In this document: positions 1,688 to 1,884 of the stretch, piece by piece
Numbering within the stretch: position 1 is the stretch's first letter
How the letters are laid out: the number at the start of each line of letters is the position of its first letter
Source of the DNA: Clostridia bacterium
GTDB taxonomy: Bacteria > Bacillota > Clostridia > Oscillospirales > Butyricicoccaceae
DNA: 47,106 nucleotides
Direction of reading: 5' to 3'
Assembly (NCBI GenBank): GCA_017453985.1
Contig: JAFTDT010000003.1
Coordinates: forward strand, 1-47,106
Position numbers and translations under genes: made by a program
Notes under the pieces: generated by a model
What the model was told of the DNA's origin: nothing
Databases searched by the model: none
The model's input: only the letters and a program-made list of their open reading frames with translations

Positions 1688-1851
1688 ATAAAAAGTGGCG
1701 CAGCGGTTGCTGCGCCACGAAAAACGCAGTACTCCGCTTGCTGCCACGCAAACTTTTGGAAGCCCGAAAGGAATGCCAAAATAGGGAGTGCGTTTTTACC
1801 GAAGTAAAACACATTCCTTTCAATCTTCCCGTATTCAGTTTGCGTGGCAGC
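1688..1851 (-). ncRNA. Structured small RNA or attenuator leader, unassigned family
   Basis: Read on the minus strand, a 15-bp perfect closing stem (GCTGCCACGCAAACT, 1851-1837, with 1754-1740) encloses GGAAG/CTTCC pairing and a 10-bp stem GAAAGGAATG/CATTCCTTTC. At the tip is a GTTTTAC-TTCG-GTAAAAAC hairpin. The segment AAAAACGCACTCC inside the element can pair over 13 bp (one 3-base bulge) with the segment that follows the closing stem (about 1719-1735), which would be a pseudoknot competing with the TTCG hairpin. A terminator follows: a 10-bp perfect stem (1695-1704/1709-1718) and TTTTT. A promoter TTGCGC-N17-TAAGAT ends five bases before the closing stem. I could not match it to a family I know; it is either a free-standing small RNA or a leader for the zinc-ribbon operon 115 bases downstream. 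Confidence 0.65.
1695..1718 (-). terminator. Intrinsic terminator of the structured RNA
   Basis: A 10-bp perfect stem GTGGCGCAGC/GCTGCGCCAC with a four-base loop, followed on the minus strand by TTTTTATATTTT. The CTGCG just upstream could pair with the CGCAG in the 5' half of the stem, giving a possible anti-terminator. Confidence 0.8.
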
Positions 1852-1855
1852 TTTA

Positions 1856-1884
1856 TCTTAACATAAACAAGACAAGAGCGCAAC
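1856..1884 (-). promoter_or_regulatory. Sigma-A-like promoter for the structured RNA
   Basis: On the minus strand TTGCGC, a 17-base spacer and TAAGAT, ending about five bases before the first base of the closing stem. The geometry places the transcription start close to the stem, which is what an independently transcribed RNA would show. Confidence 0.55.

Follow-up and report, generated by a model that had tools for sequence, protein, structure and literature searches.

A probable riboswitch-like transcription attenuator in leaders of exported-protein genes in Clostridia

Background

Transcription-terminating riboswitches are 5' leaders with a closing stem, a pseudoknot, mutually exclusive antiterminator and terminator, and a gene directly behind; they occur in several unlinked copies per genome, and tandems are found. 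The element described here shares all of these properties; it differs, however, in the 3' strand of its pseudoknot, which is placed outside the closing stem and also forms part of the antiterminator strand.

The c-di-GMP riboswitches (GEMM-I and c-di-GMP-II) occur several times in a genome, frequently in front of surface or adhesion genes. The element resembles them in its multiple copies and in its association with surface genes, but it has no Rfam match. In view of the surface-gene bias c-di-GMP was considered as the ligand and set aside for the genome under study; it is unlikely here, since no GGDEF domain was found in this genome (97.7% complete), while the same search was positive in 8 of 14 control genomes. 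T-box leaders are likewise terminator/antiterminator leaders in Clostridia; a T-box search gave no match at the elements and did find a T-box elsewhere in locus L139. The 6S and raiA RNAs are structured, of similar length and have their own promoters; a gene-linked antiterminator belongs to the element and to neither of them.

By gene association the nearest published orphan is the SLH motif, a riboswitch candidate reported in 2019 from Clostridia, among others, before surface-protein genes (PMC6429828). S-layer-homology genes are reported to follow about 60% of its 80 examples, and its range extends to Synergistaceae and Negativicutes (PMC6429828). Clostridia, surface-protein genes behind and orphan status are common to both; the two differ as far as gene association and reported range go (PMC6429828). 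One SLH-like protein (L219) was noticed among 137 genes downstream of the element, the SLH domain is not among the 25 commonest downstream families, and SLH genes are far from a majority; the element also gave no hits outside the class in a sample of the phylum.

Results

The window is a stretch of 47,106 nucleotides (contig JAFTDT010000003.1 of a Clostridia bacterium of the order Oscillospirales). The whole element, from promoter to terminator, spans 1883-1690 of its minus strand (Table 1); the predicted RNA is 160 nt long and probably starts within the first bases of the P1 5' strand.

Table 1. Features of the element and of the genes behind it in the window
Feature	Positions	Strand	Basis or remark
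-35 box TTGCGC	1878-1883	minus	sequence; position conserved in the family
-10 box TAAGAT, extended TG at 1863-1862	1855-1860	minus	same RNA distance in 171/199 copies
P1 5' strand, closing stem	1837-1851	minus	15 bp with 1754-1740
P2 5' strand, inner stem	1812-1830	minus	fold; family test z -28.9
S1, 5' arm of hairpin P3, GTGTTTTAC	1804-1812	minus	family test z -8.2
S2, GGTAAAAACGCACTCC	1785-1800	minus	partner is S1 (hairpin P3) or S3 and preceding bases (pseudoknot)
P2 3' strand	1758-1775	minus	pairs with 1830-1812
P1 3' strand	1740-1754	minus	pairs with 1851-1837
AT, antiterminator strand, GCAAGCGGAG	1732-1741	minus	GGAG shared with the pseudoknot
S3, pseudoknot 3' strand, TGCGTTTTT	1720-1728	minus	5' part also in the antiterminator
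Antiterminator hairpin	1701-1742	minus	-17.6 kcal/mol
Intrinsic terminator, 10-bp hairpin 1718-1695 and U5 at 1694-1690	1690-1718	minus	-20.3 kcal/mol
Ribosome-binding site GGGGG and 6-codon frame MFCTFI*	1646-1678	minus	sequence; frame itself 1666-1646
First full downstream gene, Zn_Ribbon_1 membrane protein, 187 aa	1010-1573	minus	
Second downstream gene, zinc ribbon and GYF_2 membrane protein	391-999	minus	

The original prediction had placed on this strand a promoter, a perfect closing stem, inner stems, a TTCG-capped hairpin, a 13-bp pseudoknot and an intrinsic terminator, and all of these are present. The promoter, with a 17-nt spacer and a consensus match at just 7 of 12 positions, does lie immediately before the stem, at 3 nt from the end of the -10 box and not at the five bases proposed. 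P1 consists of 15 perfect pairs (-28 kcal/mol), and the TTCG-capped hairpin, P3, has its first base at 1812. In the pseudoknot, AAAAACGCACTCC (1797-1785) pairs with GGAG...TGCGTTTTT (1735-1720) over 13 bp interrupted by a 3-nt bulge (-14 kcal/mol), using the same bases as P3. A CTGCG segment had been predicted to pair with the 5' arm of the terminator; the pairing is real and makes up the inner portion of an antiterminator that is larger and combines AGCGG (1738-1734) with CCGCT (1706-1702) and CTGCGTT (1729-1723) with GGCGCAG (1716-1710). In the window this antiterminator is interrupted and weaker than the terminator (Table 1). The 164-nt fold has -79.8 kcal/mol versus -45.1 +/- 3.8 for shuffles (z -9.2).

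The structure had been matched to no family, with raiA and 6S RNA left unconfirmed, and this stands: among the 4227 families of Rfam 15, none exceeded its gathering cut-off for the window or for either of the two subfamilies distinguished below, and for the window nothing relevant appeared even at E up to 10. tfoR scored best, with 23.4 bits where its cut-off is 70; the hits to tfoR and TarB, all weak and owed mainly to the terminator region, were rejected. No description of the element was found in the open-access literature.

With the DNA as query, blastn against 99 related genomes detected homologues in further families of the order Oscillospirales. A covariance model built from 8 homologues, aligned on P1 and sequence only, has matches in 100 of 295 genomes of the order and in 91 of 391 genomes of the class Clostridia, with up to 10 matches in one genome; its E-values are rough, the tallies were made at differing cut-offs (0.01, 0.001, 0.0001), and strict filters drop weak members. 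In a 398-genome sample of the phylum, which includes some members of the class, no match lies outside the class, the sole positive being the window's own genome. A sequence-pattern scan of named genomes gave at least 119 stretches; among the matches listed with a name all are Clostridia-type records (Oscillospiraceae, Christensenella, Monoglobus and Clostridia MAGs), mostly from gut or rumen. The window element is apparently one copy of a large family without earlier record, found in about one quarter to one third of the sampled Clostridia genomes.

The genome under study has three copies (C112, which is that of the window, C51 and C102, the last also listed as L279), followed by the zinc-ribbon membrane operon, a lipoprotein gene and a gene for a CHAP-lectin secreted protein. 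Within the window's own bacterial family the element is rare: only two other members (G033, G040) among about 60 sampled have a clear DNA or model match, versus about one third of the order, which suggests loss or transfer. Two IMG/VR contigs carry it (L221, 4284-4419, and L222, 5377-5512, both on the minus strand), with the same kind of small gene behind. Tandem copies about 200-315 nt apart were seen in L237, L247, L250, L253, L254, L267, L046, L085, L076, L224, L228 and L229; those inspected have a promoter and a terminator for each unit, with one gene behind.

Covariation was assessed in a set of 123 distinct elements detected with the model, which keeps out the bias of the pattern scan. 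In P1, 982 of 984 cells are paired (99.8%), and a single position carries GC in 70 elements, CG in 38, TA in 8 and AT in 7. The pseudoknot, a pairing absent from the model, has 1187 of 1226 cells paired (96.8%), with exchanges such as GC97/AT15, TA56/CG35 and GC103/AT7. Compensatory changes in these two helices had been named in advance as the test of the structure, and both helices show them. None of 2000 shuffles was equally good for either helix; shuffle tests are inflated by related sequences, which the within-genome swap described below counters for the antiterminator only. S2 carrying UAC, CAC, CGC or UGC is accompanied by S3 carrying the fitting UGUA, UGUG, UGCG or UGCA. When pairing energy was compared between own and swapped partners (n=113), z was -20.8 for P1, -28.9 for P2, -8.2 for P3, -8.6 for the pseudoknot and -7.7 for the antiterminator, versus 0.1 for the control S1 x S3. 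RNAalifold on the model alignment recovered only P1, because loop lengths vary and pseudoknots are outside its scope.

Hairpin P3 and the pseudoknot are mutually exclusive because S2 serves both, as had been proposed for the window. The exclusion is conserved in the main subfamily, where the S1:S2 hairpin spans at least 6 of the 9 S2 bases in 113 of 115 elements, with fitting changes. It is not universal, since in a second subfamily (e.g., L084 and L105; GAAUUU-GGUAAAAAYGC-AAAUUC) S2 forms the loop of P3 rather than its stem and no displacement is needed. A second exclusion, against P1, is suggestive: pairing is possible between UUG in the P1 3' strand and the following CAA in about 111-118 of 123 elements per position, in mostly invariant sequence, and full matches number 39, against a mean of 26 and a maximum of 35 after shuffling. 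In the window the bases concerned lie at 1752-1737; a few members keep this pairing by paired changes (AUG/CAU, CUGA/UCAG).

Bases that look single-stranded are conserved at three places: AAUA after P1, GGU before S2 and CUCUNUUUU after S2. The promoter is conserved as well: of 199 copies, 171 have the -10 box at 4 nt upstream of the start of the model, 178 have the extended TG, and 160 score at least 9 of 12, a score reached by 10 after shuffling of the upstream sequences.

Between P1 and S3 lie 14 nt (consensus CAAUCGGAGCUA) that, together with UGCG of S3, are complementary to the 5' arm and loop of the terminator (for example, UAGCUUCGGUUG). The pseudoknot and the antiterminator cannot coexist, because both use GGAG and UGCG. 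The full antiterminator has -16.6 kcal/mol with its own terminator versus -13.3 in chimeras (z -11.2); the terminator has -14.8, and the two structures are at most 4 kcal/mol apart in 140 of 197 copies. The preference for the own terminator persists when the copies compared share a genome (-17.1 versus -14.4 kcal/mol), and shared ancestry is therefore excluded as its sole cause. Striking antiterminators of 11-12 or more uninterrupted pairs are found in L020, L038, L090, L113, L225 and C102. AT shows no own-sequence preference for the last 8 nt of the terminator (z 1.0); its pairing with the terminator 3' half, first meant as a negative control, gave z -5.7 because that slice includes the loop. 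Antiterminators formed with the terminator 5' half by the P1 5' strand (z -1.0) or by S2 (z -2.4) were tried and are unsupported.

A gene with a ribosome-binding site lies in reach of 165 of 200 distinct elements, and in 109 of these 165 the U-run is followed by the start codon at a distance of 10-29 nt; for 28 elements no clear gene follows. Among 137 close downstream proteins 26 have BspA-type leucine-rich repeats (LRR_5/BspA), and many others are lipoproteins, small cysteine-rich proteins and zinc ribbons. For genes of at least 150 aa, 63 of 84 (75%) look exported versus 73 of 411 (18%) in the background (p 6e-24), where the export call is a simple signal-sequence rule and the background consists of the other genes in the same loci; a lipobox occurs in 25% of downstream genes versus 4% of the background. 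The original suggestion of a leader for a zinc-ribbon operon is accordingly right for the window copy and too narrow for the family, whose genes are very varied and mostly encode exported proteins; their functions are too varied for a ligand to be named. A small cysteine-rich protein of 57-84 aa, (D)xTGIELTPGxxGKDCLGNGxxxxECCCDECDYLxxC, recurs after the element in several genomes, at L084, L076, L151, L203, L210, L262 and L263.

Discussion

We consider it likely that the element is a 5' leader acting as a riboswitch-like transcription attenuator of the gene or genes behind it. The family combines a conserved and mutually exclusive terminator and antiterminator, a conserved upstream sensor fold with compensatory changes, and a consistent place just before a gene on the same strand. 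The polymerase would begin at the edge of P1 and make, in this order, the P1 5' strand, P2, P3, the P1 3' strand, AT with S3, and the terminator. If AT and S3 then pair with S2 drawn out of P3, the pseudoknot would form, the terminator 5' arm would be left free and transcription would stop; if S2 is kept in P3, AT and S3 would pair with the terminator 5' arm and loop, and read-through would follow. The antiterminator pairing could be completed before the terminator 3' arm is made. From this order of synthesis and from the removal of AT and S3 by the pseudoknot we infer that the pseudoknot is the OFF state and the P3 hairpin the ON state. What tips the balance would be a signal in the cell, most probably a small molecule that the fold of P1, P2 and the pseudoknot binds, and the copies would act mostly on genes for exported or surface proteins.

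Control by a small molecule is suggested by the architecture, and the main alternative is a protein: the same attenuator could be governed by an RNA-binding (anti)terminator protein, or by another RNA, in place of a directly bound small molecule. We regard this as a possible though doubtful reading. The conserved AAUA, GGU and CUCUNUUUU could be protein contacts, and the breadth of the regulon is like that of global RNA-binding regulators; however, BglG/LicT- and ANTAR-type antiterminators bind short hairpins, the element is larger and more intricate than these, and no candidate protein gene is linked to it.

Another reading, which we find unlikely, takes the 160-nt terminated transcript as the product, a small RNA acting in trans with the downstream genes as mere neighbours. 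The original prediction had left the choice between a stable small RNA and a switch-like leader. The element does have its own promoter and terminator, strong and positioned ones across the family, and there are complete tandem copies and the 28 elements with no clear gene. Against this stand the tight spacing to the ribosome-binding site and start codon, the bias toward exported genes, and an antiterminator matched to its own terminator even within one genome, which would be superfluous for a pure small RNA. The start-codon spacing, the conserved antiterminator and the exclusive helices speak for the leader, a purely trans-acting RNA is not favoured, and the terminated 160-nt RNA would be the OFF product of the leader.

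Still less probable is a processive antitermination RNA that modifies the polymerase in the manner of EAR or put; the position at the extreme 5' end directly before a terminator and the conserved pseudoknot would suit it, but EAR-type RNAs act on distant terminators, and here the antiterminator helices for the own terminator already account for read-through. A mobile or repeat element of MITE type with a chance promoter and terminator is hardly credible in spite of the tandems and of up to 10 copies per genome, because the copies diverge widely yet keep all helices by compensatory change, hold a fixed position before genes and have no blastn match in the phage and plasmid records.

Returning to the attenuator controlled by a small molecule, we find the case evenly balanced that it represents a riboswitch class not described before, confined to Clostridia and frequent in lineages of gut and rumen, which switches genes for exported or surface proteins through the contest of pseudoknot and antiterminator. 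If so, the signal sensed may be a novel one, and the element would be among the more widespread orphan regulatory RNAs: there are hundreds of copies in the few hundred genomes sampled, mostly of uncultured gut and rumen Clostridia, and many more would be expected. A switch common to genes for lipoproteins, BspA-type leucine-rich-repeat proteins and small cysteine-rich or zinc-ribbon proteins would mean that one signal sets the cell-surface proteome, and discovery of the ligand could reveal a signalling molecule.

The window copy itself may be decaying, since its antiterminator is weak and interrupted, its first frame has 6 codons, and the zinc-ribbon gene is about 90 nt farther from the element than usual; being that far away and behind the 6-codon remnant, this gene may be regulated poorly. 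The frame MFCTFI* occupies the site where other copies begin their gene and is probably a gene remnant. The full gene behind it begins with MFCSKCG, and the frame looks like what is left after the start of a gene was replaced or duplicated. L085 has a comparable truncated start between its tandem copies.
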